DNA of 64,000 nt from assembly GCA_025454405.1 (NCBI GenBank), contig JALOON010000045.1, forward strand, positions 124,001 to 188,000, written 5' to 3'. This document shows, in pieces, positions 5,448-51,782 of the stretch. The stretch is from Oscillatoriaceae cyanobacterium Prado104. GTDB taxonomy: Bacteria > Cyanobacteriota > Cyanobacteriia > Cyanobacteriales > Microcoleaceae. The stretch's first letter is position 1; every line of letters starts with the position of its first letter. Both the position numbers and the translations under genes were made by a program. A model generated the notes under the pieces. It did no database searches and was not told where the DNA came from. It saw only the letters and a list, made by a program, of their open reading frames with translations.

Positions 5448-6728
5448 TTAAGATAGTTGTTTTTGCAGAAAATAGCCGATTAGATAAAGCGAACCGCAAA
5501 TAACTATTAAATTTTTATCTCCAACCGCAACATCTAAAGCTGTTGTTAATTCAGAAAAAGTTTGACACAGGGCTAATTCCGGGCAAACTTCTTTAGCAAT
5601 AATAGCTAATTCTTCCGGGGATTTTGAATTAGGTTCCGGCACGGGTACGAGATAAAGCAGATCGCCCTTTTTTAGCAACGCTTTTAAAATATCATCGCAA
5701 TCTTTTGTTGCCAGAATACCGATTACCCAATTAATTGGTGACGGTGGGTTGTGAAGGCGATCTACATATTCGCGCAAAGCAATAGCCGCCTCGGGATTGT
5801 GCGCGCCGTCAATTAAAATTTTGCGGTTTTTCCAAGTAGTTTTCTGGAGTCTTCCGGGCCATTTAGTTTTAGCAATGCCGTTTTGAATTGCCGTTTCGGA
5901 AATTTGCCAGCCTCGGTTTTGGAGGGTTTGCAGAATTGCGATCGCGATCGCTGAATTCATTAGTTGAAACTTTCCCAGCAAAGGCAGTTGATATTTTATT
6001 TCAGCCGCTGATGCGTGTTGATTAACACTGATATTTTGAGTTCGATCGTATTGGGCCCATCCTTGTCCTAAATCTTTTGCTGGCTTTACCCAAGTTGCCG
6101 GACAATCCAATTCTTGAATGCGTTTTTCAATTACTATCTTGGCAGATTCTGGCAATTCTCCGATAATTGCCGGACATTTTGCTTTGAGAATTCCGGCTTT
6201 TTCTCCAGCAATATCAGCAACGCTGGGACCGAGGATTTGCCAGTGTTCGAGACTAATAGAAGTGATGGCGCACGCGAGAGGTATTTCGCAAACATTAGTC
6301 GCGTCCAACCTGCCGCCCAATCCGGTTTCGATGATTGCAATATCTGCTTTTTGTTCGGCAAAATACAGCCAAGCTGCGGCGGTGATAATTTCAAATTGAG
6401 TGGGAGTTTCCATATCCTGGTGGGCTGCAACAATTCTTTCTAAATATTGCTGCAATTCTGTTGCAGAAATTGGCTGTTGGTTGATGCAAATTCTTTCCGT
6501 CCAATCGATTAAGTGCGGGGATGTGTAGCGCCCGACTCGATAGCCGGCTGCTGCGAGTACGGAAGAAAGGTAAGCGCAAACCGAACCTTTGCCGTTGGTT
6601 CCTGCAATGTGGATAATTGGTACTTGTTGGTGGGGGTTGTTGAGTTTTTTGAGGAGTTGTTTGATTCTATCTAATCCGAGGTGGATGCCGAAATGTTGGT
6701 AGGATTTGAGAATGGATTCTGCATTCAT
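5448..6728 (-). CDS. folC: Bifunctional folylpolyglutamate synthase/dihydrofolate synthase
   Basis: A 426-residue Mur-ligase-type enzyme that adds glutamate to dihydropteroate and to tetrahydrofolates with ATP. Visible motifs are the P-loop IHIAGTNGKGSVCAYL near residue 40-55, TSPHLIDWTERICIN, the FEIITAAAWLYFAEQ helix, ETGLGGRLDATNV, and the C-terminal ligase motif ILIDGAHNPEA. The length fits the family. The gene stands alone on the minus strand. Its upstream region is filled by heptamer repeats starting right at the start codon, so the promoter must lie within or beyond them. Confidence 0.95.
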   Translation of the reverse strand: MNAESILKSYQHFGIHLGLDRIKQLLKKLNNPHQQVPIIHIAGTNGKGSVCAYLSSVLAAAGYRVGRYTSPHLIDWTERICINQQPISATELQQYLERIVAAHQDMETPTQFEIITAAAWLYFAEQKADIAIIETGLGGRLDATNVCEIPLACAITSISLEHWQILGPSVADIAGEKAGILKAKCPAIIGELPESAKIVIEKRIQELDCPATWVKPAKDLGQGWAQYDRTQNISVNQHASAAEIKYQLPLLGKFQLMNSAIAIAILQTLQNRGWQISETAIQNGIAKTKWPGRLQKTTWKNRKILIDGAHNPEAAIALREYVDRLHNPPSPINWVIGILATKDCDDILKALLKKGDLLYLVPVPEPNSKSPEELAIIAKEVCPELALCQTFSELTTALDVAVGDKNLIVICGSLYLIGYFLQKQLS

Positions 6729-10644: not shown

Positions 10645-12921
10645 ATGGCTAATCAAACGGTTGACTTGACCAATTGCGATCGCGAACCCATCCACATTCC
10701 GGGTTCGATCCAGCCGCACGGCGTGTTGCTGGCGATCGAACCCGCTACTTTCAAAATTCTTCAGGTCAGCAACAATAGCAGGGACTGGCTCGATCGCGCG
10801 CCGCAAGAGTTGTTGGGAAAATCGCTATCTCAACTGCTGGACTCGCAGCAAATAACCGCGATCGAAGAGTGTTTGGCTGGCAATTTTGAAAGCATGAATC
10901 CGGTGGAAATTTACATCCAGCGAGGCAGCAAATTATTCTGGTTCGATAGCATCGCCCACCAATCCGACGGTTTAGTGTTGCTAGAATTAGAGCCAAAAAC
11001 CGCAGCGCAAAAGCACAGTTTTTTTGATTTTTACCATCAAGTACGGGGAACGATCGCCAAAATTCAAAAAGCACCGACGCTGCGAGAAATGAGCCAGGTT
11101 GCAGTCAGCGAAGTGCGCAAAATTACCGGGTTCGATCGCGTCATGGTATACCAATTCGATCCAGATGGAGCCGGCAGCGTCATTGCCGAAGATACAGACA
11201 GCGAAACCCCCTATCTCGATTTGCGCTACCCGGCCAGCGACATTCCCCAACAGGTGCGACAACTCTACACCCGCAACTGGCTGCGCCTGATTCCCGATGC
11301 CAGCTACCAGCCTGCGGCGCTGACGCCCGCCACCAATCCCCTAACGGGGCAACCCCTCGATCTGAGCAGCGCCGTGCTGCGCAGCGTTTCTCCCCTGCAC
11401 CTGGAATACCTGCAAAACATGGGCGTGACCGCTTCCATGTCGGTATCTTTGATTCAGGATGGGAAACTTTGGGGATTGATTGCCTGCCACCACTCCTCGC
11501 CCCGCTACGTCCCCTACAGCGTCCGCACCCTCTGCGAGTTCGTCGGACAAGTGATGTCGCTGGAGTTGGCAAACAAAACAGCCAATGAAGACCTCGACTA
11601 CAAAATAGCGCTGAAGTCGCTGCAAACCAAATTTGTAGAAGCGCTGTCCCAGTCCGAGAATCTGGTGGACGGACTGGTGCAACTCGAATCGCAACTGCTG
11701 GATCTGGTGGGCGCGACGGGTGCGGTGGTTTGCATCGGCGATTCCCTGCGAGATGGTACGCCAGAACGCTGTGTCTGCATCGGCAATACGCCCCCCACAA
11801 CAGCGCTGCCCGGCCTGCTGCGCTGGCTCAAACCGCACTTGCAACACAATTTATTTCACACTCAGTCGCTGTCTGTCCTTTATCCCGAAGCAGAGGCTTA
11901 CCAGGCGCAAGCTAGCGGTTTGCTGGCGCTAGAAATTTCCAAAGTCCATCACAACTACATTCTCTGGTTCCGTCCCGAGGTGCTGCAAACAGTCAAATGG
12001 GGTGGCAATCCCAACAAACCCGTTGAAGTGCTTGCCGGCGGCACCTTGCGGCTTTCGCCCCGCAAGTCGTTTGCACTCTGGCAGGAAACCGTCAGCGGGT
12101 GTTCGTTGCCCTGGAAACCCTGCGAACTGGAAATTGCAGCCGAACTGCGGAGTTCGATCGTCGGCATCGTACTCCGGCAAGCAGACGAACTGGCATCGAT
12201 GAACGTCGAACTGCAGCGCAGCAATGAAGAACTTGATTCCTTTGCCTACATCGCCTCTCACGACTTGAAGGAACCATTGCGGGGAATTCACAATTACGCT
12301 AATTTTTTGATGGAGGATTACGGCGAAATTCTCAACGAAGACGGCGTGGCGAAGCTGCAAACCCTGGTGCGCCTCACCCAGCGCATGGAAGATTTGATTA
12401 ACTCGCTGCTGCACTTCTCCCGATTGGGACGGGCCGAACTGCTGCGACAGCCCGTGAATTTAGACGATTTAATCCATCAAGTCATCGCTACTTTAAATAT
12501 GGCGCGACCGCAAAATGCGATCGAGTTCCGCATTCCCCGCCCCTTGCCCGCGATCGAATGCGATCTGGCTCAGGTAAGCGAACTCTTTACCAATTTGATC
12601 GGTAACGCTATCAAGTACAACGACAAACCAGAGAAGTGGGTAGAGGTTGGGTTCATCGAACCTGATGGGGAGAACGACCCTCACCCCCTTACCTTCTACG
12701 TCCGCGATAACGGTATCGGCATTTCCCAAGACTATCTCGACCAAATTTTCCAAATCTTCCGCAGGCTGCACGGACGCGACGAGTTTGGCGGTGGCACCGG
12801 TGCCGGATTAACTATTGCCCGAAAAATTGCGGAACGGCACGGCGGCCGGATCTGGGTAAAATCAATTCCTGAGGAGGGCAGCACCTTTTACTTTACGCTG
12901 ACACCGGAGCCCCTTGCATGA
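10645..12921 (+). CDS. Biliverdin-type bacteriophytochrome histidine kinase (CphB/BphP-like)
   Basis: A 758-residue red/far-red photoreceptor kinase. Order: PAS-like domain (about 15-115), GAF (about 145-310), PHY (about 325-510), HisKA with phospho-acceptor H539 (ASHDLKEPL), and an HATPase with NAIKYN, DNGIGI and GTGAGLTIA motifs. Chromophore type can be read directly: Cys11 sits in CDREPIHIPGSIQPHG, the biliverdin attachment position of bacteriophytochromes, while the GAF site used by Cph1-type phytochromes reads SPLHLEY with no Cys. PASDIP (196-201) and the PHY tongue motif PRKSF are present. It overlaps the next gene, a response regulator, by four bases, the standard phytochrome kinase-Rcp arrangement. 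The cytosolic dimeric kinase would signal red/far-red light to that regulator. Confidence 0.93.
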   Translation: MANQTVDLTNCDREPIHIPGSIQPHGVLLAIEPATFKILQVSNNSRDWLDRAPQELLGKSLSQLLDSQQITAIEECLAGNFESMNPVEIYIQRGSKLFWFDSIAHQSDGLVLLELEPKTAAQKHSFFDFYHQVRGTIAKIQKAPTLREMSQVAVSEVRKITGFDRVMVYQFDPDGAGSVIAEDTDSETPYLDLRYPASDIPQQVRQLYTRNWLRLIPDASYQPAALTPATNPLTGQPLDLSSAVLRSVSPLHLEYLQNMGVTASMSVSLIQDGKLWGLIACHHSSPRYVPYSVRTLCEFVGQVMSLELANKTANEDLDYKIALKSLQTKFVEALSQSENLVDGLVQLESQLLDLVGATGAVVCIGDSLRDGTPERCVCIGNTPPTTALPGLLRWLKPHLQHNLFHTQSLSVLYPEAEAYQAQASGLLALEISKVHHNYILWFRPEVLQTVKWGGNPNKPVEVLAGGTLRLSPRKSFALWQETVSGCSLPWKPCELEIAAELRSSIVGIVLRQADELASMNVELQRSNEELDSFAYIASHDLKEPLRGIHNYANFLMEDYGEILNEDGVAKLQTLVRLTQRMEDLINSLLHFSRLGRAELLRQPVNLDDLIHQVIATLNMARPQNAIEFRIPRPLPAIECDLAQVSELFTNLIGNAIKYNDKPEKWVEVGFIEPDGENDPHPLTFYVRDNGIGISQDYLDQIFQIFRRLHGRDEFGGGTGAGLTIARKIAERHGGRIWVKSIPEEGSTFYFTLTPEPLA

Positions 12922-18885: not shown

Positions 18886-18998
18886 TAAAGTCCCCTTGCG
18901 GGGAAGGCTGAGTAACAGTCAAAAATAATCTGACTATTACGCAGCATTGTTACGGAAGCTAGTTTCCGTCCCCGTGAGGGGAAGTTGGCAATCTATTA
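18886..18998 (-). CRISPR. Degenerate two-repeat CRISPR remnant
   Basis: On the minus strand the sequence at 18962-18998 ends in CTTCCCCTCACGGGGACGGAAAC, with the stem CCCC-tcac-GGGG and the GGAAAC 3' end common in cyanobacterial repeats. A weaker copy (18886-18918) has CTTCCCCGCAAGGGGAC. The two stems are 78 bases apart, matching one repeat plus one spacer of about 40. The repeats diverge outside the stem, so this is a relic or the last units of a decayed array. It lies about 0.1 kb beyond the 3' end of the HEPN module and in the same orientation as the type III genes. Confidence 0.45.
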
Positions 18999-19104: not shown

Positions 19105-19509
19105 TTAAGGGTTTAGTAGTTGTTTGACTATTTGCAGGTTGTCAAAAGATTTATCAACATCTGTTTTTTTATGTCGGCGATAATAATCTCTAGCATTAGT
19201 TTTTATATTTGTTAAATATCGCGCTATTTGACTTTCATTTTTCAGATTCTTGTAAGCTTTCTCCAAATTTCGATCTTTCCGAGCGACAGCAATATCACGA
19301 ACGTAATCAAACAGGCGATCGTGTGGCGATGAGGAGCCTTGATATTTTTGTTCTAGATCGTCTCCCTGAACCTTGGCATAAGCTGCTACGCAGTGCAAAG
19401 CTGAATAGAAACACATTGTGACTGCCCAATCAGGAGAATCATCTCTGATATTAAGGGCGGCCTTTTCGTTATACTTAGCTTGTTCGCGATGGGACTGTTC
19501 GCTCGGCAT
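19105..19509 (-). CDS. HEPN-like helical protein
   Basis: A 134-residue all-helical protein. It has the layout of small HEPN proteins: DWAVTMCFYSALHCVAAYAK, a SSPHDRLFDYVRDIA loop-helix, LKNESQIARYL, and a C-terminal RDYYRRH that fits R-x5-H. HEPN proteins are often RNases in toxin-antitoxin and CRISPR-linked systems. The ATG at 19509 is preferred to an upstream TTG. It is the last gene of a tight three-gene minus-strand group. Whether RDYYRRH is the catalytic HEPN motif is uncertain, because it lies in a basic helix. Confidence 0.6.
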   Translation of the reverse strand: MPSEQSHREQAKYNEKAALNIRDDSPDWAVTMCFYSALHCVAAYAKVQGDDLEQKYQGSSSPHDRLFDYVRDIAVARKDRNLEKAYKNLKNESQIARYLTNIKTNARDYYRRHKKTDVDKSFDNLQIVKQLLNP

Positions 19510-19555
19510 AAAAATCAACAGCTACTTTCTGGTTTGTTCAGTAATTTCATTTAAT

Positions 19556-20038
19556 TCAGACCACCACAAATAAATTACGACTCGATTTCACTTGATTGTA
19601 GTAGCTTGTAGAGCGTGACAAACTTATTCCTGAAAGGGCAACTACTTTAGCTCCGTTTTGGATTCTGAAAAACTTCTCCACGATTTTTTCGTCAAAGTAC
19701 CATTTTTCATTGGTTTTATCCCGCAAATCCCATTCACAATCAATTACTAAATCTTGGATTTTTTCCCAAATTTCATCATCTAACTCTGTGTCAGAGTGCA
19801 GTTCTAATTCAAACTCAATCCAGTGAATGTCTTCAGGTCTAGAAGCTATAGCTCTAACTTTTGCTACACCGTCCACCTTCGCTAATTCCTGCACTAATTT
19901 GTGTACTTCAACAGGAGCGGAAAGAGACTTAAATGACTGACTTCGTGCCAGAGTAGAAGGGGAGTATTGATATACTTTCCAACTTTCTGGATTCGATATT
20001 GAATTGGGAAATTCTTTTAAGCTTCTGGTTGCTGTCAT
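19556..20038 (-). CDS. Unknown protein, middle gene of the HEPN module, possible C-terminal frameshift
   Basis: 160 residues, starting 3 bases after the stop of the preceding small gene. The central region is rich in acidic residues (HWIEFELELHSDTELDDEIWEK) and reads as alternating strands and helices. I do not recognise the family. The encoded end (KSSRNLFVVV) looks abnormal. In another frame the sequence continues NRVVIYLWWSELNEITEQTR to a stop at 19522, 13 bases before the HEPN start. One extra A, or two missing, in the A-run at 19586-19588 would explain this. Confidence 0.5.
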   Translation of the reverse strand: MTATRSLKEFPNSISNPESWKVYQYSPSTLARSQSFKSLSAPVEVHKLVQELAKVDGVAKVRAIASRPEDIHWIEFELELHSDTELDDEIWEKIQDLVIDCEWDLRDKTNEKWYFDEKIVEKFFRIQNGAKVVALSGISLSRSTSYYNQVKSSRNLFVVV

Positions 20039-20813: not shown

Positions 20814-21488
20814 CTAGCCCGCACACTTGACCTTCTTGGGACTCCCATCTTCCTTAAGATCTAAAACCTCAACTTTCACCACTTGTTGTTCAGAGAGGGA
20901 TTGTGCTTTTTTCGGTTCTTTTTCAGTCAGCCTGATACTTCCCAGAATTTCATAAGTTACTTTGTTGCCTTTGACAGCAGTAACTTTGGCTTCGATAATT
21001 TGACCGATCGCAAAACTATAACTGCTAATTGCCTTAGCAATTTCAACTTGCCTCGCTGACTCTACAACTGGAGCTGCAATTTCTCCGATCGGCCCTGCTT
21101 CTTTGTAATAACGCATCAAGCGGGATGCCCAACCTAAAATTTGCAGCAAAGTGCTAGCATCTCCTTGAAATCCTTTGAGATATTCGCTACAAGCTCGATC
21201 GATGCTGCGGTAATAATCTGTTGTTTTGCCGCTGTGTCCGATTTGTCTGCCATTACCGACAAGGGTTTTTAGGTACTTGAAAAAACGCGAAATTGCATCA
21301 GTTCGCTCTTGATTAACTGCACTGCGGAGATAGGCGATCGCCTTTCCAAACTCATTGAGATCTGCCTCTTCTTTGACAAGAAATTGCGCGATATTGTGAG
21401 CAATTTTCCATTGTTCTTCGGTTAAAGATGCTACAAAAAGTTCAGTATCGATTGTCTGGCATTTGATTTCCTCAACTACTTCTGTCAT
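20814..21488 (-). CDS. Cas11-like helical protein with a C-terminal beta domain
   Basis: 224 residues, last gene of the type III operon. Residues about 45-130 are helical with AIAYLRSAVNQERTDAISRF, GKTTDYYRSI and ILGWASRLMRYYKEAG. The last motif parallels YLGYGSRYLKYLRDG of the clearer small-subunit gene at 26788, which suggests a second Cas11-like subunit. Residues about 150-224 are beta-rich (AIGQIIEAKVTAV, VTYEILGSIRL, VVKVEVLDLKEDG) and could be an OB/S1-like barrel. The combination is unusual; the Cas11 relation is an inference from pattern, not a search. Confidence 0.5.
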   Translation of the reverse strand: MTEVVEEIKCQTIDTELFVASLTEEQWKIAHNIAQFLVKEEADLNEFGKAIAYLRSAVNQERTDAISRFFKYLKTLVGNGRQIGHSGKTTDYYRSIDRACSEYLKGFQGDASTLLQILGWASRLMRYYKEAGPIGEIAAPVVESARQVEIAKAISSYSFAIGQIIEAKVTAVKGNKVTYEILGSIRLTEKEPKKAQSLSEQQVVKVEVLDLKEDGSPKKVKCAG

Positions 21489-21543
21489 TTTACTACTCCT
21501 AGTTTAATATACCTGTTACCTTTTAATCCTAAAACTCAAATAT

Positions 21544-22608
21544 TCAATACATTCCCGAAGGAGGTTCGCGATCGCTCGGATATTTCAACACGGCGGCTAA
21601 TTCTTCTAGTTGCGGTTTTTGAATTAAACTAGAATGGGCAGCTTTCATCATTTTCTGCATGAATTGTTGCAGTTCGTTTCCTGAAATGCGATCGCCCTCT
21701 GAAGTATAATAAGAAGCATAGCGATCGCGCAATTTTTCCCTGCTTTCAACTCGCTCGATTTCTGTCACAGTTACCGTCATCGTTCCCATACCGATTGGTT
21801 TGCCGCCGCCCACTTTAAGGGCGATCGGATATTGAGTATCTTGCCCTAAAACAACCAGCAAAGTTCCCAATTCTGCGGCTGTCAAATTCTTAAATGCAAT
21901 CTGAGTTTTAAAAGTATATTCTTTAGCTGCCTGCTGCACAGTAATCCCTCGATCTTGACCTTTATCGATCGCCCGAATTGCGTGGTAATAAAATTTGCGT
22001 CCCGCTACTTTCCCGCGCCCGTCAAAATATGCCGCTCTTTGGTCTGGCCTGGGACGGTATAAAGATGGCATAAATCCTGTGGCAAAACCAGTTGTTTCGC
22101 ACTTGGCATCGCTAAATTCAATTAATCCTTGCCAGTCCAATGCACCAAATACTTGACTTGCCGGACAAAGTTCGTCTTTCTTTTTGCACGGCAAGCGATC
22201 GGGCGGTATTTTGTCTCTATATCTTGGGGTAATTACCGCCAAAGTGCTGTTAGTAATTGCTTCGTAAACCGACCTAATACAGCCTTTTAAAGAACTTCCT
22301 TGAATCGATAGTTTTTGGTCGGTTGCTTGCACCATTGTTTTAATCAAAGGAACGCGACTGCCGATATCGCTGCCCATGACCACTACGCCTGTAGAAACGT
22401 GCAAAGAAGTTTGAACTTTTAGGGTGAGAAAAAGAGTTCCGTGGATGCGATCGCTCTTATATTTGTCATGTCCGATCGGGCGCTGCAATTTGGGTCTTTC
22501 TTTAGGAAAGGAGACAAAAGCATAAGGTTTCGGTGCAAGTTCGGATGACGCTGAACTCGAACTCGGACGGTTAGGTGGTTGAGGTCTTTGGGGGCGATTT
22601 CCAGTCAT
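21544..22608 (-). CDS. Type III RAMP (Cas7-like) without the catalytic Asp
   Basis: A 354-residue RAMP protein with a disordered Pro/Ser-rich N-terminus of about 45 residues. The ferredoxin-like core shows KVQTSLHVSTG, LSIQGSSLKGCIRSVYEAI (the conserved thumb/helix) and the glycine-rich loop VGGGKPIGMGTM. Where sister proteins have Asp-x-Pro (S-D-L-P-V-I-K), this one has S-R85-V-P-L-I-K, so it should bind but not cleave target RNA. Its ATG overlaps the Csx19 stop (ATGA). Confidence 0.8.
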   Translation of the reverse strand: MTGNRPQRPQPPNRPSSSSASSELAPKPYAFVSFPKERPKLQRPIGHDKYKSDRIHGTLFLTLKVQTSLHVSTGVVVMGSDIGSRVPLIKTMVQATDQKLSIQGSSLKGCIRSVYEAITNSTLAVITPRYRDKIPPDRLPCKKKDELCPASQVFGALDWQGLIEFSDAKCETTGFATGFMPSLYRPRPDQRAAYFDGRGKVAGRKFYYHAIRAIDKGQDRGITVQQAAKEYTFKTQIAFKNLTAAELGTLLVVLGQDTQYPIALKVGGGKPIGMGTMTVTVTEIERVESREKLRDRYASYYTSEGDRISGNELQQFMQKMMKAAHSSLIQKPQLEELAAVLKYPSDREPPSGMY

Positions 22609-23099
22609 TTTTCCGTTCCAACTGTGAGGGCAATAAAGTGTACGGTTGCAGTTTTTGCATCTTGAAAATATCGCTGACCAACAGCAATATTTTTAGGGTC
22701 GATCTTTTCGTCACTCTCATCTTTAAAAATGAAACCTTTGGGAAATCTGGTTTCGCCTGTATTGTAGAAATAGGCAGGGCGATCGATCGCCTCCCACTTT
22801 ATCGCTTCCTTATTTCCCGAAATTTCTTCAAATCCTAACTCATTTTTAGGTTCTATACTCAGCAGCAAAACTTCGTAACCCGTTCCCTTTTTTTTCCAGC
22901 GCAGATCAAATTGAGAGTTAAACATTTGCCCTTCATAACCTGGAAAATCATCGGGCAGCTTCTGAATAATACCGCTGACTTTGTGAGGCCAGCAAAGAAA
23001 GTAATAGCTGGGAGAAATTTTTAACTCTGCGCGATCGAGCAATTCTTGCAAATCTTCTTTAGATTCAACCAGTTTGTAACCTACAAACCCATCTTTCAT
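22605..23099 (-). CDS. csx19: Csx19-like type III-D protein
   Basis: A 164-residue protein matching what I remember of Csx19/TIGR03984: a Tyr-rich N-terminus, YYFLCWPHKVSG, then MFNSQFDLRWKKKGTGYEVLLLS and a late FPKGFIFKDE segment. It lies between two Cas7-like genes and overlaps both by four bases (ATGA). Csx19 is a type III-D marker. Its molecular role is not well established; presumably it is part of the effector complex. Confidence 0.65.
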   Translation of the reverse strand: MKDGFVGYKLVESKEDLQELLDRAELKISPSYYFLCWPHKVSGIIQKLPDDFPGYEGQMFNSQFDLRWKKKGTGYEVLLLSIEPKNELGFEEISGNKEAIKWEAIDRPAYFYNTGETRFPKGFIFKDESDEKIDPKNIAVGQRYFQDAKTATVHFIALTVGTEK

Positions 23100-24097
23100 G
23101 CTGCCGTTCCTCGCTGCAATAACTGACTCCAAGAAGTTACTGCTTTAGCAAACAAATCTTTTACCTGTACCTCTCCCGACCAAGTTAGCTGCACTCCAAA
23201 ACCTAGATCCATTTTTTGAGCGCCAACAGGAGTTTCTTCTCTATCTTCTGAAGGAAAACCGTAAGCTTGTGCTTCTGTTGTTTCGAGAAATTCTCCCGCA
23301 CCTAACAATGAGGTATAATTCCATTGTTTTTGACTGCCAATAGCGCGAATTTGGTTATCTTTTAATTCGCAACCCGGATACTGCACGATGGCTGAATTCA
23401 ATTTAACTTGCACCGTTCCCAAACCGCGAGATTTCGCAAAACCCAAGCCAAACCAACCATCATTTAAATCGCGCAATACTAAACCAATTAAACCTAATTG
23501 TGCGAGGGTAAAATTCTTGAGATGAATCTTGGTACGAAATTCACCAGCGGTGCAAACTTGATAGTTGAATAATGCTCCGGGTACAGTTGAGCCGAAGACG
23601 CGATCGATCGCAACTCCATTTCGTTCTTCTACCTTGGGTTTGGGTTTATCTTTGTCAGGATAAGCATCTTCTATTCTAACGCGACTGGCGATCGATGTGT
23701 TACCGAACATTTGAGACACAAAGCAGGATTGTTTGTATATTTCTCGCCCCGGATTGTGATGGTTTTTGTTAGCCTTTTTCCAATCTTCTAAATAATGGTT
23801 CGGATTATTGCGTTTGTCTTCGCTGAGAGGGTCACTTGCCCAAAGTTCAAATCCATCACCATTAGGGCGTTTATCTTTACCCATTGTACGGACAATTCGT
23901 TCTGCATGAGCGCGAATAGCACCTTTTAAACTGCTTCCGGGAAGGTAGATAGAACGTCCTCCTGCGTGGTAAGTCTCGACAAATTCCATATCCGGTTTAG
24001 TCGGATCGGCTCCTTCTTTGCCAGATTTAATTAGTATTGGGCCGTCGGGAATTATGGTGAGGTCGATCGAGCAATGATTGACAAATCGTTTGTGCAT
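23096..24097 (-). CDS. Csm3-like Cas7 RAMP
   Basis: A 333-residue RAMP. Core motifs: IDLTIIPDGPILIKSG, K-P-D36-M-E-F-V at the catalytic loop, SIYLPGSSLKGAIRAHAERI, SQMFGNTSIASRVRIEDAY, NGVAIDRVFGSTVPGALFNYQV and the glycine-rich loop GFAKSRGLGTV. D36 occupies the position of the RNA-cleaving Asp of Csm3, so it is probably an active backbone subunit. The start is about 30 bases after the PD-(D/E)XK-like gene. Confidence 0.85.
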   Translation of the reverse strand: MHKRFVNHCSIDLTIIPDGPILIKSGKEGADPTKPDMEFVETYHAGGRSIYLPGSSLKGAIRAHAERIVRTMGKDKRPNGDGFELWASDPLSEDKRNNPNHYLEDWKKANKNHHNPGREIYKQSCFVSQMFGNTSIASRVRIEDAYPDKDKPKPKVEERNGVAIDRVFGSTVPGALFNYQVCTAGEFRTKIHLKNFTLAQLGLIGLVLRDLNDGWFGLGFAKSRGLGTVQVKLNSAIVQYPGCELKDNQIRAIGSQKQWNYTSLLGAGEFLETTEAQAYGFPSEDREETPVGAQKMDLGFGVQLTWSGEVQVKDLFAKAVTSWSQLLQRGTAA

Positions 24098-24126
24098 GGT
24101 TGAGTAAGTCGATAGAGAGTTGAAAA

Positions 24127-24747
24127 TTAGGCAGCTACTAATTCATCAAGTTGAATTTCGCATTGTTGAAACACATAGTTAACAGCAGCAAACAGTCGAT
24201 CGATTTCTTGTAGAAAATAGCGGTCAATACTCCTGGTAAAAACCAGTCCTTCTAATTTACCAAATTCCCAATCTTTGCCGTTGGAAACAATCCCAAATAT
24301 TGTTACCTGCAATTCGTCATTCAATCGCTGTGCTGCCACCATCTCAGCTAAACATTGCGCCCAACCTTCTTCAAATTTATCTTGTTTCGCTTCTACTAAA
24401 AGCAAATACGGTTTGTCAAAAACAACTTTTCCCTGAGGAGAACGTTTGGCCAAAATATACTCAGGAAAACCTGACAATTTAGTATCGCAGTTAAGAGCTT
24501 CGTGACTCCACAAAAGCAATTTACTGCGATAGGTTTTCCAAATTTCTTTCAGCACTGGATAAATCAAATTTTCGCAAACAGCAAATTCTGAGTTATCAAC
24601 CACTCCTTCCCGCATCATTATTTGCAAGTCTTCGAGGAAGTAATCGGAGATTCTGAAAGCTGTTTCAATAACAAAATTAGCTTCAGTATATGTCAAATGA
24701 AATTCTTTGATAACTGCACCGATCGTCCTGTAATTGCTAAAAGCCAT
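24127..24747 (-). CDS. PD-(D/E)XK nuclease-like protein embedded in the type III operon
   Basis: 206 residues. The helical N-terminal half is followed by a nuclease-like core: LSGFPEYILAKRS, then KPYLLLVEAKQDKFEEGWAQCLAEM, which gives P-E...E-x-K in the right order, then a strand VTIFGIVSNGKDWEFGKL. Similar stand-alone proteins are common hypothetical proteins in cyanobacteria. Here it is only 7 bases from the preceding Csm3-like gene and 30 from the next, so it is co-transcribed. It could be an accessory DNase or RNase of the system or a passenger. Confidence 0.6.
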   Translation of the reverse strand: MAFSNYRTIGAVIKEFHLTYTEANFVIETAFRISDYFLEDLQIMMREGVVDNSEFAVCENLIYPVLKEIWKTYRSKLLLWSHEALNCDTKLSGFPEYILAKRSPQGKVVFDKPYLLLVEAKQDKFEEGWAQCLAEMVAAQRLNDELQVTIFGIVSNGKDWEFGKLEGLVFTRSIDRYFLQEIDRLFAAVNYVFQQCEIQLDELVAA

Positions 24748-24754
24748 ATTTGCC

Positions 24755-25615
24755 TCACTGTGTCTGAGTTAAAGTTTCAGATGATTGGGTTTCTTTCGGA
24801 GTCAGTCGATCGATCAGCTTTTGAACCCACTCATCTTTATAATCGGCTGCATCTTCATAAGCCGATTCATCTCCCATGACTAATTTTTTTAAGTATTCTA
24901 ACAAAAATTCGGGATGGTTTTCGACATCAACCCAGCGCATCTTATCAATTTCTAGTTTAACAACTCCCAAGCCGCGCGATCGCCCGCCACCCAGCGGAAT
25001 TTGTTCTGTTTCAAACTGGTGCAATCCTATTGTTAATAAACCCAATTCCCAAGGTTCTGCATTTTCGACAATCGCTTTAAATTCAAAAGGCGTTCCTGCT
25101 GGAACTACTTGAAAATCGTAGAGTTTTCCATCTGCTGCGGTTTCGGTGTCTCGATCGATCGCCACACCATCTCTTTCTTGATATTGTCCGAACCAAGCAT
25201 CAGGAATTACTGTTAAATCTCGCACTTGAAATTTGCTGGCTATCCAGGGAGAACCAAAGAGATGAGAAACTAAATCTGTATGCTTGAGAATTTCAGCAGT
25301 TAAAGCTCGATCGTCCTGAAAATTTTCTTTAATTTTCTTCATTTCTTGAGATGTAATCGACCATTCATCTTCTATGGCTGGATTGGCTACTAATTTGCGA
25401 TCGCTTCCCACAATTCCTCGGAGAAAGCTTTCTAAGCGCGATCGTAAAGCCCCTTTAAAACTAGAACCGGGAATCAACGGTCTGCCCAAAGCATCTTTAA
25501 TTACGGGTAAATCGGAGCCAATTGGTTCGGTCGATCGACCTTTACTAATGCGAAGTGCAGTTACAGTTGTCAGCGTTCCCGTAATTTCTAGTCGATTTTT
25601 GAATGTATCAAACAT
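24755..25615 (-). CDS. Csm3-like Cas7 RAMP
   Basis: A 286-residue protein, the closest of the set to canonical Csm3: LEITGTLTTVTALRIS, I-G-S-D35-L-P-V-I-K-D with the catalytic Asp, LIPGSSFKGALRSRLESFL, LFGSPWIASKFQVRDL, DGVAIDRDTETAADG, and LGGGRSRGLGVV. It should form part of the backbone and cut target RNA. A strong AGGAGGTGA directly follows the CARF gene stop and precedes the ATG. Confidence 0.9.
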   Translation of the reverse strand: MFDTFKNRLEITGTLTTVTALRISKGRSTEPIGSDLPVIKDALGRPLIPGSSFKGALRSRLESFLRGIVGSDRKLVANPAIEDEWSITSQEMKKIKENFQDDRALTAEILKHTDLVSHLFGSPWIASKFQVRDLTVIPDAWFGQYQERDGVAIDRDTETAADGKLYDFQVVPAGTPFEFKAIVENAEPWELGLLTIGLHQFETEQIPLGGGRSRGLGVVKLEIDKMRWVDVENHPEFLLEYLKKLVMGDESAYEDAADYKDEWVQKLIDRLTPKETQSSETLTQTQ

Positions 25616-25625
25616 AACTCACCTC

Positions 25626-26741
25626 CTAGTTTTTGTATTTTTTAGCTAAATGCAAAGCAATAGTATTGGTTTCAGCAAGATTCCTTCCTGTTGTTTGAAT
25701 GCACAATCCCAATCCTCGATCTGTCCAAGTTAGAACAAACTCAATAGTTCCATCGTGTTTAGTTCGGCGAATAGGATCGATCTGTTTTGAATTGAACGGT
25801 AAAGAATTGATAATTTCTTTTACATAATTCGAGCGACGGATTTTCTCAGCAAATGCTTGCAATACATCTTTACCATGATCGTCTCTCAGCCTAATTGGTT
25901 TGTTGTCAGGGGCGGTATCATCTTGAGGGATTAAGGAGAGAATAGTAGTTTCTTGCTTGGCAAATTGTAATCGGCAACGTTCGTTAAATAGGACTCCCAT
26001 TGCCGAAAGACTGACGGCAGTTTCATTGCCAATAGGTTCCTCGTCAATAAGTGACTCCATATACTTACTTTCCAGGCTTGCTTCAACTCTTGATTTTTCA
26101 ATGGTTTGTGCAGATTCCAGCTCGGAAAATAATTGATAATTATTGAGCCAAAAAGCAAGGTCAAGAGCAACTGGTTGTGGAGGTAGATCAATTACTTCTG
26201 AAAACTTCTCAAATAAGTAATAAACGGGAATTTCCAACGCTTGTCCGATCATGCCTGCAAACGAAATCTGTGCTTTATATCCGCCAGTAGCATTGATCGC
26301 AATTGCTTCCGGAGAAAAGTTTCTTACTTCTGTGCTAATCTCGCGGACAAGATTTTTAAGTCCTTGTTGCTTAAATTTCTTAACGTCGTCATCGCGCAAT
26401 CCTTGAAGCACTCGAACTTCAACAGGTCGATCGACTTTCAGAGAATTACCTGAATTTTCATAATACAACTTAAGAATATCGCCAGTTGTTCTACCATCTG
26501 CTGTATCGGAAACTAGAAAAATTAATTTTGGCTCTCGATCTTTAAACTCTTTTTGACAGATACTTGTAATTGAATTTATTTCTGCTCCGCACAACCGATG
26601 GGAGTTGGCTCTCTGGACTAATAGAAGTGCTATTTGATGCCAATTTTTGGCTTCAAAAGCTTGTTGGATATCTTCTTCTTTAGAAAATTTTAGGTTATTG
26701 AGAAGGCTCGTACCAACAGTAGAAATTAATCTCGTTCTCAT
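25626..26741 (-). CDS. CARF-domain effector with a small C-terminal domain (possibly RelE-like)
   Basis: A 371-residue protein. The N-terminal CARF (Rossmann) domain shows RLISTVGTSLLNNL, KLIFLVSDTADGRTTG, and INATGGYKAQISFAGMIGQAL followed by PVYYLFEKFSEVIDLPPQPV, as in the APE2256/Csm6-type group. CARF domains bind the cyclic oligoadenylates made by Cas10. The last about 75 residues (helix IRRSNYVKEIINSL, then TIEFVLTWTDRGLGLCIQTTG, then a helix) could be a RelE-fold RNase as in CARF-RelE (Cami1) proteins; this is tentative. No HEPN R-x4-6-H is seen at the C-terminus. The ATG at 26741 has TTTGGAG upstream and beats the upstream TTG. Confidence 0.75.
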   Translation of the reverse strand: MRTRLISTVGTSLLNNLKFSKEEDIQQAFEAKNWHQIALLLVQRANSHRLCGAEINSITSICQKEFKDREPKLIFLVSDTADGRTTGDILKLYYENSGNSLKVDRPVEVRVLQGLRDDDVKKFKQQGLKNLVREISTEVRNFSPEAIAINATGGYKAQISFAGMIGQALEIPVYYLFEKFSEVIDLPPQPVALDLAFWLNNYQLFSELESAQTIEKSRVEASLESKYMESLIDEEPIGNETAVSLSAMGVLFNERCRLQFAKQETTILSLIPQDDTAPDNKPIRLRDDHGKDVLQAFAEKIRRSNYVKEIINSLPFNSKQIDPIRRTKHDGTIEFVLTWTDRGLGLCIQTTGRNLAETNTIALHLAKKYKN

Positions 26742-26787
26742 TTTTTTCTCCAAAATTTAAGATTTGTGTTTTTTAATTTATTCTCGA

Positions 26788-27213
26788 TTAGTTTTGACCA
26801 TCTCTCAAATACTTCAGGTAACGAGAGCCATAACCTAAATAGCGGCGAATCATTTCTAGCCAAATAGGTTTGAAATCTGTTTGGGAACATTCGGCAATTA
26901 TTCCCGCACTATTTTTAATGTTACCCTCAATATCTTGAATTATCCTTTCAGCTAAAGATTGTTCTCCCCTTCCCCATTTTGTGTCCCGACCTACTTGATA
27001 TCGAATAAAGTTCTTGATAACTTCCGCACTATCAGTTGTATCAGCAACGCGAACTAAGTTGCGGAATTGTGATTCCTCTAGTTTCTCCTTTCCTGACTGA
27101 CCATATTCACAAGTATTTAGAGCGTCCTGAATCCAAATTACTAGATCGTCTTCTACTTGGCGAATGGATCTTTGTACTTCTAACTGTACTTTTTGCTCTG
27201 TGCTGATACTCAT
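26788..27213 (-). CDS. Cas11-like small subunit
   Basis: A 141-residue all-helical protein. Helices VIKNFIRYQVGRDTKWGRGE, IIQDIEGNIKNSAGIIAE and WLEMIRRYLGYGSRYLKYLRDG. Size, charge and position between the Csx10-like and CARF genes fit the type III small subunit. The true start is the ATG overlapping the Csx10-like stop (ATGA); the longer frame upstream is inside that gene. Confidence 0.65.
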   Translation of the reverse strand: MSISTEQKVQLEVQRSIRQVEDDLVIWIQDALNTCEYGQSGKEKLEESQFRNLVRVADTTDSAEVIKNFIRYQVGRDTKWGRGEQSLAERIIQDIEGNIKNSAGIIAECSQTDFKPIWLEMIRRYLGYGSRYLKYLRDGQN

Positions 27214-28493
27214 ACTGCATTCTCCCGAAATATAGTGTGAAATTCGTTGCAAATTTGAATTTGTCCGAAGCCTTCGCAGGTTCGATCGCCCACTCCTTTT
27301 AATTCTAAATCCTTTAACTTTTTCAACCACACATCTTTTTGCTCTGTGCTGAACAAATATACACTCCCTCTATTAGTGATTAATTCCACATCCTTTAGCA
27401 ATCCCCAAGCAGAATTCCAGCCAGAGAGATACTCATAGCTGCTGTAGGTCACTTCTAGTTTGAGAAACTTGTCTTGCTCTTCTTGATTCATTTTACAGTA
27501 TTCATCCTCTAAATCGACAAATTGACACAACATTTTTGGTGAAATTACCGTAGTTCGCTGCCAATTTTCAGTCAGAATAGCGGGAGACTGCAAATCAAGC
27601 GTAAAATAAGTACGATCTATAGATATTTCTGGCTTAGGACTGCCAAAAATTTTCCCGAGCTTCCAACGCTCTTTGAGATGGTCGTTAAATGTATTAATCC
27701 TGGTTGCTACATCGGATGTAGCATCTTCAATATTAGCTGCGATCGCAACTTTCCCTAATCCCCGCGAAGTAGCACCACCCAGACGAAATACCTGACAATT
27801 GCGATTGATGTAATTTGTTATAGCTCCTGCTAATCCGTCATTTTCAACCATAATTGAACTGCGGTAAACAACAGGATTCCAATTTTTAACCTTTGCATCC
27901 GGGTCTTTGAGAAATGATTCGTTGAGAACTTCAATGCTATAAAGGATTTCCTCCTGAGAGGTAGCGCGACGGCGATTAATTCCCACTCGCGTCAGAAAAC
28001 GAGTGCTAACAGAATGGTTGCGATATTTTTTGTTTGCTTGACTGTAAAAACCGCTGTAGGGTTCAACTCTTCCCCGATCTTTCGGACAACTAGGGTCATA
28101 GGGAAAGTTATATAAGTCAGCACAATAACGGTCAATCAATGTATCAAATACTCCATTTCCATCTGATTTAAATCCAGGGCTATTTTTAGAACTAACGGCT
28201 GTAGCTGGCAGTACCATAATTTCCTCAGCCACAACTCCAGTCTTTTTAGCTACTGCTGGATAAGCATTCTGAAAAATCGCTGGGTTTTCTCCTAAAAATA
28301 ACTCTTTAAAGTCGCGACCATCTTCAGCTAAATTTTCGTTTAATTGACCGGATTGCTGTAAGATTTGAGCAGCGATCGTACCTCGAATGACAGAACCGGG
28401 AATGTGGTCTTTTGCTTCGCTTATAGAACCGGGTTTTTTATCTGCGATCGCTAACGGCGACAAAGCAGTAATTTCCAATTTAATCCGCTTCAT
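27210..28493 (-). CDS. csx10: Csx10-like RAMP (type III-D Cas5-like)
   Basis: 427 residues from the ATG that overlaps the preceding RAMP stop. N-terminal KRIKLEITALSPLAIADKKPG, HIPGSVIRGTIAAQIL (helix after the first strand), a long middle region, and the glycine-rich FRLGGATSRGLGKVAI. A second half (FTLDLQSPAILTENW) looks like another ferredoxin-like unit. Csx10 binds the crRNA 5' tag in type III-D complexes. The assignment rests on the N-terminal pattern, length and neighbours. Confidence 0.75.
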   Translation of the reverse strand: MKRIKLEITALSPLAIADKKPGSISEAKDHIPGSVIRGTIAAQILQQSGQLNENLAEDGRDFKELFLGENPAIFQNAYPAVAKKTGVVAEEIMVLPATAVSSKNSPGFKSDGNGVFDTLIDRYCADLYNFPYDPSCPKDRGRVEPYSGFYSQANKKYRNHSVSTRFLTRVGINRRRATSQEEILYSIEVLNESFLKDPDAKVKNWNPVVYRSSIMVENDGLAGAITNYINRNCQVFRLGGATSRGLGKVAIAANIEDATSDVATRINTFNDHLKERWKLGKIFGSPKPEISIDRTYFTLDLQSPAILTENWQRTTVISPKMLCQFVDLEDEYCKMNQEEQDKFLKLEVTYSSYEYLSGWNSAWGLLKDVELITNRGSVYLFSTEQKDVWLKKLKDLELKGVGDRTCEGFGQIQICNEFHTIFRENAV

Positions 28494-29203
28494 GACTTTG
28501 CCTCCGGTAGTAATTCTTGCCAAGCTGAATCTGCCTGCGACAGTTTTTCTAATTCCTTCCAAGTTAACCAACCCAACCCCGCAGATTTACTACCTCCTAG
28601 CGCGTGAATGTGACGCAATCCTGCTAAAATTATCGCTTTAGCATAGGTTGGACAACCTGGCAGTAAATGAATCTCTCCCTTAAATTCTAATTGAGCATTA
28701 GCTGGGGAAGTTTCTAGGAAGAAAAGTTTTTGGTCTTCTGCGGTGCGACGGCTGCGGTTAATAGTGACACCCGGACGCAATACTTCTGGTAAATCTTCTC
28801 GTTCTAAGTTGCATATTAAGTCATCAACAACAATTCTAGATGGCAATATAGGATTGCCAAAAATTTTAGAAACAAAGCAGTGATAGCCTCTGTAACCATC
28901 CACTTGATACAAAGAACGAAACTGTTCTAAAACTTGGTCTTCTCTAGGACAGAGTGCTTCAGCAGCAGGAGATTCAAAAATTTGCCATCCCAGTCCCCTC
29001 GCTAACTTTTCGCATTCGTGGCGCAATCTTCCTTTGAGTTGGGAAGCAGGAATCAGCAGTTGTCCTTTAGCATTGCGAACGATTGGTTTATCTGCAAGGG
29101 AACCGTCAGAACCACCCGCACCGACACATAAAGCAGTGTCAATTACTGCTGTTAGCTGAAGAGGTATTACCCGATTGTCAGTTAAGGTATTCAAGTCAAT
29201 CAT
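28490..29203 (-). CDS. Csm3-like Cas7 RAMP adjacent to cas10
   Basis: A 237-residue RAMP: LQLTAVIDTALCVGAGGSDG, L-A-D38-K-P-I-V with a candidate catalytic Asp, LLIPASQLKGRLRHECEKLAR, FVSKIFGNPILPSRIVVDDL, and ALGGSKSAGLGWL. The start chosen is the ATG that overlaps the cas10 stop (ATGATTGA); a longer version would run into cas10. It is probably a backbone subunit. Confidence 0.85.
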   Translation of the reverse strand: MIDLNTLTDNRVIPLQLTAVIDTALCVGAGGSDGSLADKPIVRNAKGQLLIPASQLKGRLRHECEKLARGLGWQIFESPAAEALCPREDQVLEQFRSLYQVDGYRGYHCFVSKIFGNPILPSRIVVDDLICNLEREDLPEVLRPGVTINRSRRTAEDQKLFFLETSPANAQLEFKGEIHLLPGCPTYAKAIILAGLRHIHALGGSKSAGLGWLTWKELEKLSQADSAWQELLPEAKS

Positions 29204-31679
29204 GGCTGTACTGTTGGTTGTTTGACATTGGGGTGTTTGATTGATTTTTTTGTTCAATAAATGGGTATAAATCCACTAACTCTCTCCAGATAGTTTCATA
29301 GTGGTTTGTTTGCAGTATCTTTAAAACTGCATATTGCAACTTAAATCTTTCTTGTGGGAATGTTTCAAAGAAGATTAGTAACTTCAAATTCCTGTAGAGA
29401 GCAATTTTGTTCGTCATCCAAGGTGCTAAGTTGCCATCATTAGTTAAAGGTTGACACCACGCATTCTCAAATTGGTTTCGCAGTTCATCTTGTCCTTGTT
29501 GCAGTCGCACTCGGAAATAACGGTAGTTGAGCATGACTGTATGTTTTCCCCTTTCTAGTAGACTGCGGATTTGATAGAGTTGCGATCGCGGAAAATCTGC
29601 TTTCTTCAAAACTTTAGCCGTTTCCAACAGTCCTCCTAGTTCGTACAAGGTATAAGGTGCAGCATAAAGCTTTAATTTTTGTTTGCCGGGTCCTGACTTG
29701 GTTAATCCCTGACTGCGAAACTCGCCAACATTGGATGAAATCATTGTTACAGATTTCATTACCAAAAAGTCTACCGTTCCGCCATAATAATTCTGTTGTT
29801 TCAGCTCTTTGGCTCGCTTTTTTGCTGACTTTAGTAACTGATTAGTTAACTTTTCCGCGTAATAGATAGGCGTGTCTTCAGCCGTAATTAGCACTCCGGC
29901 AGACATACTTAATTTACATTGTATGTCGCTTGTTGGCGGTTGTGTTTCCCGATACTCTCCCAAGTAGCGATGGATAATTTGAGGACAATATTTTTTGTTA
30001 TTTTCTTGATAGCGCTTGCCCCGCTCCACAAGAAGCCTTTCAAACTCTTCGCCAATTGTTTTGGCGATCGCCAATGCTCGATCTGCTGGCACAATCAACA
30101 TCACATCATCCCCACCAATAGTTAAAATTTCAAATGGATGAATCCAGACTTCTTCTTTGCTTTTTCTCCCCGAATCGGCATCGGGTTTATATTTATGAGG
30201 TTTGAGATGTTGAGCGAGAGCAACATATACGGACTTCTCAGTTGCTTCAAAAATATCGCGGCTGAAACGCTGGTAGGTTTCGGGATTTTTAATTTCTTTC
30301 TGAATGTAACCTCCCATGTTGTTACCGTCAGCGTAAATATAAGCTACAAAACCTTTTACCAAGCTAGCATTGGCAATTTCTCTTACCGATCGCGCTTCTT
30401 CAACATCTGATGAACGTATTTCACCGTAATATTCATTGTAGGTTTTATGAGTTGCGCGCAGCAAAAATCCCTCAAACTTATTAACCCAACTTTCAACTGC
30501 TCCCGGTTCCATGTTTTCGGGAGTTGCAAAGTCCCAATCTAGTTTAGAATCTTGCCACCAAACAGGCAATTGAGGAGGCGATCGTAATTCTTTTTTAGCA
30601 ATTTGTCCGATTAATCGCTTGCGAGCTAAAGCTTCAGAAAACCACGGATCGCCAGGAAGTCCTTTGTTTTGATTGTTAGGATTGCTTTTAGCTTGGAAAA
30701 CAGCAGATCTGCGATCGCTCTCATCTCTCCTCAAATAAGGATGCGTTTCAAACATCGGCGGGTAGCTGCGGCTGGGGCGATCGCACTCTGGCAAATTATT
30801 TCCATTACGCCGCTGATTGAATAGAGATGCTAGTTTTCCCGCCAATTCATTAAATGTTTTGCGCTCCTCAAAAGCTTCTTCTGGGGATGTCTCCAGTTGT
30901 TCAAAGTAAGCTTTGATTAAGGGATTTTCTAGATTTTCTCTATATTTTTCCATCCAAAATGTATTGTCATCTATTTCAGCAGGCAATAGTCCAAACTGAA
31001 TTTCTAGCGCTTTAAATTTAGCTCCAACTGCACAGGAATTAGCAGTTAATGTCTGGTGCGTGTAGCGTTTTTCAATAGCGTTAGCCAAATCGCCTGCAAA
31101 AGCTGCCGGACTAAATGCTAAAATATTACCGCCTGTCGAGTAGATAATTAGCTCGGGAATCAGCGCTTGTGAAAGTTCGGGAAAATTTTCAGGTAAATCC
31201 AACCATTGCGATCTAACTTGCTGACAGTAATCCTTTGCTTTCTGACACTGAGGAGAATTTTGGTCATTTTCACAGCTAAAGAAAGCAGGCAGATCGACTA
31301 AGTTAATTCGATCTAATAATGCTGATGCCCCTCGGATATCTGGGAGTTTTGCTGCTTCAAATACGTATTGCTTGATTTTGGTGGCACCGCCATAAACCAA
31401 GCCGATTTCGTATTGCATTAATTGAGAATTTTGTTTTGCTATTTCTTTGAGTTCCTCTAAACTATTTGGAAATGGCAACTTTTCTAATTCCCGAACACTA
31501 TCGACCATTTCCTTAACCTGTGGCGGCACTTCTTCCCCAACATTCAACGCCCGTCGCATTTCCTGCAATACGCCCAGATCGAATTGAGGTTCGCGTTTGT
31601 CGCCCCAAGCCAGACACCAAGCAATGCCTATATATATATCAGTCAATTTTATGTTACCCGAAACAGAGGTATTTGCCAT
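29196..31679 (-). CDS. cas10: Cas10 (type III large subunit), HD-less, GGDD intact
   Basis: 827 residues. The N-terminus (NIKLTDIYIGIAWCLAWGD) leads straight into the first palm-like domain (LVYGGATKIKQYVFEAAKLP.IRGASALLDRIN); no HD nuclease motif is visible. The second palm domain has IYADGNNMGGYI and the cyclase motif LTIGGDDVMLIVP (near 30100-30130), so cyclic oligoadenylate synthesis should be possible. The C-terminal helical D4-like part follows. The ATG at 31679 fits the family; the longer frame upstream is not protein-like. It is the first gene of an eleven-gene operon and its nearest partner overlaps it. Confidence 0.88.
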   Translation of the reverse strand: MANTSVSGNIKLTDIYIGIAWCLAWGDKREPQFDLGVLQEMRRALNVGEEVPPQVKEMVDSVRELEKLPFPNSLEELKEIAKQNSQLMQYEIGLVYGGATKIKQYVFEAAKLPDIRGASALLDRINLVDLPAFFSCENDQNSPQCQKAKDYCQQVRSQWLDLPENFPELSQALIPELIIYSTGGNILAFSPAAFAGDLANAIEKRYTHQTLTANSCAVGAKFKALEIQFGLLPAEIDDNTFWMEKYRENLENPLIKAYFEQLETSPEEAFEERKTFNELAGKLASLFNQRRNGNNLPECDRPSRSYPPMFETHPYLRRDESDRRSAVFQAKSNPNNQNKGLPGDPWFSEALARKRLIGQIAKKELRSPPQLPVWWQDSKLDWDFATPENMEPGAVESWVNKFEGFLLRATHKTYNEYYGEIRSSDVEEARSVREIANASLVKGFVAYIYADGNNMGGYIQKEIKNPETYQRFSRDIFEATEKSVYVALAQHLKPHKYKPDADSGRKSKEEVWIHPFEILTIGGDDVMLIVPADRALAIAKTIGEEFERLLVERGKRYQENNKKYCPQIIHRYLGEYRETQPPTSDIQCKLSMSAGVLITAEDTPIYYAEKLTNQLLKSAKKRAKELKQQNYYGGTVDFLVMKSVTMISSNVGEFRSQGLTKSGPGKQKLKLYAAPYTLYELGGLLETAKVLKKADFPRSQLYQIRSLLERGKHTVMLNYRYFRVRLQQGQDELRNQFENAWCQPLTNDGNLAPWMTNKIALYRNLKLLIFFETFPQERFKLQYAVLKILQTNHYETIWRELVDLYPFIEQKNQSNTPMSNNQQYSHD

Positions 31680-32002
31680 CACTGTATTGTGCTTCGATCG
31701 TGCTTTAGTAATTGTCGCACAGATACGGAAATAGGGTCTTCCGAAATCGCCCGACGCTTGCCACGCCTCAATTGTGCGATTTCGACGACTCAAATTTCAG
31801 CCATCTATTTATCTATCGGATGACGCCCTGCTTTTTATGCAAAATTATCGGTTATTGTAACAAATATTTATAAAACGCGGAATTTTGGGTTTTTTAGAAG
31901 CTTATTGAAGTACGATCGCGCGTCAAATTTATCGCTCGATCGCCATACAAATTAAACTAAAATACGCTATAATATTAAATCGCTCGATCGCGCAAAACAG
32001 TC

Positions 32003-51746: not shown

Positions 51747-51782
51747 GTTTCAATCCCCGTGAGGGGAAGTGGTAAGTGAAAT
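51747..51782 (-). CRISPR. Orphan CRISPR-like repeat
   Basis: On the minus strand the unit ends in CCACTTCCCCTCACGGGGATTGAAAC. Seventeen consecutive bases match the repeat at 18962 (tccccgtgaggggaagt in plus orientation), and the GAAAC end is shared. No second unit is visible at the expected 70-80 base distance. The rest of the gap (51643-51987) holds an A/T-rich segment and a GACCCGCTAGGGTC palindrome near 51920. Confidence 0.4.

Follow-up and report, generated by a model that had tools for sequence, protein, structure and literature searches.

Type III-D CRISPR-Cas systems mostly have a Cas10 protein lacking the HD domain, this domain being found in only 3% of the systems, and they are thought to work mainly via cyclic nucleotides (PMC11229360). 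Nucleases of the PD-(D/E)XK fold are met in type III loci in several forms. Can1 and Can2/Card1 join such a nuclease to a CARF domain, and NucC, which serves some type III systems, is known from one of type III-D as a fusion with Cas10 (PMC11229360). The fold recurs in restriction enzymes, namely in the nuclease domains of BpuSI and DrdV (both type IIG) and of the type I protein HsdR, as well as in the Uma2 (DUF820) proteins. In addition, the PADLOC profile PDLC01472 "PD_DExK" is labelled as "associated" with all CRISPR types, with no function given.

The protein described here, called PDX, is a predicted PD-(D/E)XK nuclease encoded in a stretch of 64,000 nucleotides (the window) of Oscillatoriaceae cyanobacterium Prado104 (GenBank assembly GCA_025454405.1, contig JALOON010000045.1, positions 124,001 to 188,000). 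Like Can1 and Can2/Card1 it belongs to a type III locus, but it is without a CARF domain, and unlike BpuSI, DrdV and HsdR it stands alone, without methyltransferase, helicase or target-recognition part. PDLC01472 matches PDX (7.8e-47, residues 53-197) and also a distant member in the neighbouring slot, so the family is already listed as CRISPR-associated by PADLOC, without a function; whereas that label covers all CRISPR types, PDX has a fixed slot in type III-D1 operons. In the literature searched, no description of this slot between cas7 genes was found for cyanobacterial III-D1, and an earlier mention is possible. With a conserved sensor-less nuclease encoded amid the subunit genes, type III-D would have a second means of attacking nucleic acid, and the mosaic of the operon shows where and how such accessory cargo is exchanged.

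The operon of the window

The host operon of PDX is a complete type III-D1 operon (Table 1), transcribed in the order cas10, cas7 (c7A), csx10, a Cas11-like gene, a CARF effector gene, cas7 (c7B), the PDX gene, cas7 (c7C), csx19, cas7 (c7D) and csx21. Its membership in type III-D is indicated by the matches of Csx10 (TIGR02674, 1e-128), Csx19 (6e-48) and Cas10 (2.8e-42) and by the presence of the Cas7 genes. The initial annotation, made from the letters and open reading frames, had placed a nuclease gene between two Cas7-like genes with gaps of 7 and 30 bases. Both neighbours match the Pfam RAMP family (8e-27 and 9e-31) and the 7 bases from the preceding cas7 are correct, but the gap to the following cas7 measures 29 bases.

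Table 1. Genes of the type III-D1 operon and their positions in the window
Feature	Position	Strand	Evidence or remark
Csx21, type III-D associated	20814..21488	-	PADLOC 4.6e-92
Cas7 (c7D, TIGR03986-like)	21544..22608	-	profile matches
Csx19	22605..23132	-	PADLOC 6.2e-48
Cas7 (c7C, Csx7-like RAMP), gene following PDX; slot-occupancy bait	23096..24097	-	Pfam RAMPs 8.6e-31
PDX, CARF-less PD-(D/E)XK nuclease (predicted), 206 aa	24127..24747	-	catalytic set E54, E96, E119, K121, Q131
Cas7 (c7B, Csx7-like RAMP), gene preceding PDX	24755..25615	-	TIGR02581 1.6e-77
CARF effector (CARF7, CARF_DUF2103 type)	25626..26753	-	PADLOC 1.4e-135
Small subunit, probably Cas11-like, start MSISTEQ	26788..27213	-	position and conservation in related operons; family match absent
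Csx10 (Cas5 of type III-D)	27210..28571	-	TIGR02674 1e-128
Cas7 (c7A)	28490..29257	-	profile matches
Cas10, 827 aa from ATG at 31679 (ORF reaches 31793)	29196..31679	-	GGDD cyclase motif at residue 522; without HD domain

Neither a CRISPR array nor relatives of two Cas6 queries were found in the window. A type III-like CRISPR repeat is present as two isolated copies (window 18962-18984 and 51747-51769) lying 33 kb apart, which are its sole exact matches in the assembly. A cluster cas6-csx1-PDX-PDX lies elsewhere in the same genome (L114, 9060-12562 on contig C70) and may supply Cas6 in trans to the window operon.

Fold and active site of PDX

The AlphaFold2 model of PDX, for which 74 relatives served as input, has a pLDDT of 95 and a pTM of 0.91. 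Among solved structures, the nucleases that it matches best are BpuSI (N-terminal nuclease, Z 13.3), DrdV (12.1), a fragment of HsdR (10.3) and TT1808 (8.6), the last of which we take to be a Uma2-type protein. The alignments to BpuSI, DrdV and HsdR (Z 10-13) begin at about residue 31-47 and extend to the C-terminus, and NucC gives a weak match (Z 6.2-6.3). The closest whole-length fold is that of mitoribosomal chains (Z 14-16), presumably mL37 and mL65 to judge from the chain names, but these are eukaryotic structural proteins and the resemblance is one of fold only. A review describes the two proteins as former endonucleases, now repurposed, that form a pseudo-dimer (PMC8998825), an arrangement that the tandem PDX pairs of some operons recall.

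The PD-(D/E)XK core had been proposed from the motif FPEYILAK followed by LLLVEAK. These are present at residues 94-101 and 115-121, and the model, the fold search and the conserved acidic and lysine residues bear the proposal out: among 69 slot copies, E54, K121 and Q131 are kept in 69/69, E119 in 68/69 (one D) and E96 in 67/69. The slot copies carry PE, not the PD of the restriction nucleases and of most distant family members. Furthermore, 67 of the 69 slot copies are full length and stop-free, and dN is well below dS in the nine pairs compared (dN/dS about 0.05-0.3). An intact, conserved active site, purifying selection and full-length copies make PDX look like a catalytically active enzyme.

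The absence of a CARF domain, also claimed before, holds, because no CARF profile matched and the model is a compact nuclease fold with no further domain. Moreover, no Pfam or NCBIfam family was found for PDX. The Uma2 profile (PF05685) matched none of the 74 members, and the Cas4 profile was absent from their Pfam matches and from the PADLOC matches of the window PDX. A sequence search of the PDB gave only chance matches to thioredoxin.

The PDX slot in cyanobacterial type III-D operons

The conservation of the slot was surveyed in 386 cyanobacterial genomes, searched separately with the csx10 profile and the PDX protein, after which the regions were fetched. In the first sample of 26 operons (L074-L099), a full PDX gene lies between c7B and c7C in 11 and a broken copy in one (L099). 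Only the 3' end of PDX is left in the otherwise empty slots of L086 (residues 170-204) and L082 (residues 192-206), so PDX was lost there. A sample without bias towards PDX was obtained by fetching 80 named other loci with c7C as bait. PDX directly precedes c7C in 56 of the 80 (53 full and 3 partial copies) and is missing from 24, and the copies end mostly 26-42 bases before the next cas7. Wherever an organism is named for a locus, it is a cyanobacterium. The two samples overlap, since seven PDX proteins of the bait sample are identical to those of the first. Chance co-location would be expected, by estimate, in well under one case. In addition, close PDX and III-D1 co-occur (15/30 versus 14/356 genomes; Fisher p = 2e-11, uncorrected for kinship). 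Homologs of PDX are thus not confined to random locations, and the slot is conserved across cyanobacterial III-D loci.

Presence of PDX changes at least 10 times on the Cas7 tree. PDX is therefore an accessory gene, lost and regained, and plain vertical descent with the operon is ruled out by these changes together with an only moderate co-variation. PDX is very probably a real, conserved but optional accessory nuclease (predicted) of cyanobacterial type III-D CRISPR.

Extra genes in the operons of the first sample are placed almost exclusively in two gaps, one before c7B, which holds CARF effectors, Uma2-type proteins and distant PDX, and the other before c7C, which holds PDX or, in L096 and L097, a Uma2-type gene (5945-6580 and 11307-11927, respectively; PADLOC PDC-S03 in L097; both from one genus). 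A CARF-PDDEXK protein adjoins in a related operon (L093). The distant PDX group likewise occupies the gap between the small subunit and c7B (L074, L087, L213, L231). Two PDX copies are found in three operons (L162, L165 and L197). Among the bait loci, three (L176, L195 and L198) have a HEPN-like pair ahead of PDX, and other slot cargo is a gene resembling nucleotidyltransferases in L201 and remnants of toxin-antitoxin type in L220. These three kinds of cargo rule out a slot that holds nucleases exclusively, and since other cargo is accepted there, the use of this slot may reflect tolerance of insertions and not function. PDX also seemed to be linked to the presence of a CARF-type insert in the adjacent gap (Fisher p 3.6e-5), but this was unsupported after kinship was taken into account, as the Cas7 tree offered only 3 independent pairs on branches with support, and these showed no trend. 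A gene pair of the PD-Lambda-2 A/B defence type was seen between c7D and csx21 in one operon (L083, 11587-12286).

Co-variation, taken as the correlation of protein distances over 40 operons, divides the operon into two co-inherited blocks, cas10-c7A-csx10 (r 0.85-0.88) and c7C-csx19-c7D-csx21 (r 0.56-0.76), with r 0.19-0.35 between them. From this low correlation, the accessory-cargo region would be the seam of a mosaic (window operon 20814-31793). PDX itself co-varies at r 0.20-0.29 with the first block (0.29 with Cas10) and at 0.39-0.51 with the second.

The family also extends beyond the slot. This genome has 14 members. A tree built from 126 members of the family shows one clade of 70 rows (SH-aLRT 92), 61 of them slot copies, and a separate clade of 25 rows that consists of copies outside the slot only. 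Some out-of-slot copies have CRISPR surroundings: csx1 and cas6 beside PDX (L126), cas6 (L122), cas6 near a second copy (L083), and, on an Allocoleopsis plasmid, crn3, cas3' and cas6 within a few kilobases. In one locus (L130) a c7B remnant directly precedes PDX, so this copy probably left a III-D slot. Near most remaining out-of-slot copies, none of the CRISPR proteins searched for turned up in the stretches examined, and these many close paralogs show that the family has a life outside CRISPR. PDX is intact in two decayed operons (L101 and L105). What looked like a natural Cas7-PDX fusion in L105 is a joined frame due to a deletion. A phage origin of PDX was rejected, as neither the protein nor the alignment matched anything in IMG/VR or among 50,697 phage records.

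Possible roles beside a Cas10 without HD domain

The reading we prefer, with a probability of roughly 0.55, is that PDX is an ancillary effector of cyanobacterial type III-D1 CRISPR-Cas, most likely acting on DNA. PDX would be made together with the Cas10 complex, whose Cas10 lacks the HD domain and bears the cyclase motif, and would take part in the immune response by cutting nucleic acid, DNA being the likeliest substrate, in addition to the nuclease activities of the Cas7 subunits and of the CARF effector. The slot would be the junction of the blocks cas10-cas7-csx10 and cas7-csx19-cas7-csx21, where accessory cargo may be gained, lost and exchanged. PDX is thus most likely a sensor-less ancillary nuclease and swappable cargo between two core operon blocks; it might dock to the complex, although the data do not require it.

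The initial annotation went further and proposed that the embedded nuclease, recruited by the complex, replaces the DNase activity of a Cas10 without HD domain. That Cas10 lacks this domain proved right: an N-terminal HD motif is absent, and in the model the palm starts at about residue 90, aligned with the starts of a solved III-D Cas10 (8s9t, Z 24) and of Pyrococcus Cmr2 lacking HD; the GGDD cyclase motif of the window Cas10 is intact. However, an HD motif that lies before the palm and is conserved or placed as in an HD domain was absent from 27 of 27 Cas10 proteins, with or without PDX, and the III-D survey quoted at the outset finds the same rule (PMC11229360). The missing HD is therefore unusable as evidence of replacement by PDX, and with 24 of the 80 bait loci also lacking PDX the replacement claim is not supported.

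A broader form of this idea, which we regard as unlikely, is that PDX docks on the III-D1 complex as a detachable DNase subunit whose DNA cleavage, activated by target RNA, would be a cyclic-nucleotide-free arm in place of the missing HD of Cas10, the Uma2 and distant PDX proteins being recruited likewise. The HD-less Cas10, the fixed slot with short gaps between two subunit genes, the lack of an own sensor domain in PDX and the precedent of NucC fused to Cas10 in type III-D (PMC11229360) speak for such docking, but HD-less Cas10 is the III-D rule in any case and PDX also occurs beside cas6/csx1 where III-D complex genes were not found in the fetched stretch. Moreover, the weak co-variation with Cas10 and the survival of PDX in some decayed operons do not indicate obligatory recruitment to Cas10.

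It is also doubtful, at slightly lower odds, that PDX is a mere passenger, that is, a mobile member of a nuclease family expanded in cyanobacteria which landed in an insertion-tolerant gap and has no CRISPR role. The 14 family members of this genome, the large clade of out-of-operon copies, the repeated changes of slot occupancy and the other cargo in the slot are what such a passenger would leave, yet a single nuclease family dominates the slot, its slot copies fall mostly in one clade, their active sites are intact and under purifying selection, and insertions are nearly absent from the other gaps between the operon genes.

Cas4 is an example of a PD-(D/E)XK enzyme that serves in adaptation, and several PDX copies adjoin cas6, but a nucleic-acid processing role in CRISPR biogenesis (on crRNA 3' ends or on spacer precursors) in place of an effector role is quite improbable for PDX, which is placed among interference subunits and not adaptation genes, is recognised neither as Cas4 nor as another Pfam family, and is missing from about 30% of the operons.

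Lastly, a pair of small genes lies 3' of csx21 in the window (19105-19518 and 19556-20038, minus strand), coding for a protein of 137 aa that is HEPN-like by eye and a partner of 160 aa. No PADLOC match was found for this pair, which recurs in about 15 related III-D loci and stands within the PDX slot in L176, L195 and L198. It could represent a toxin-antitoxin system, so far undescribed, with a tie to type III-D.
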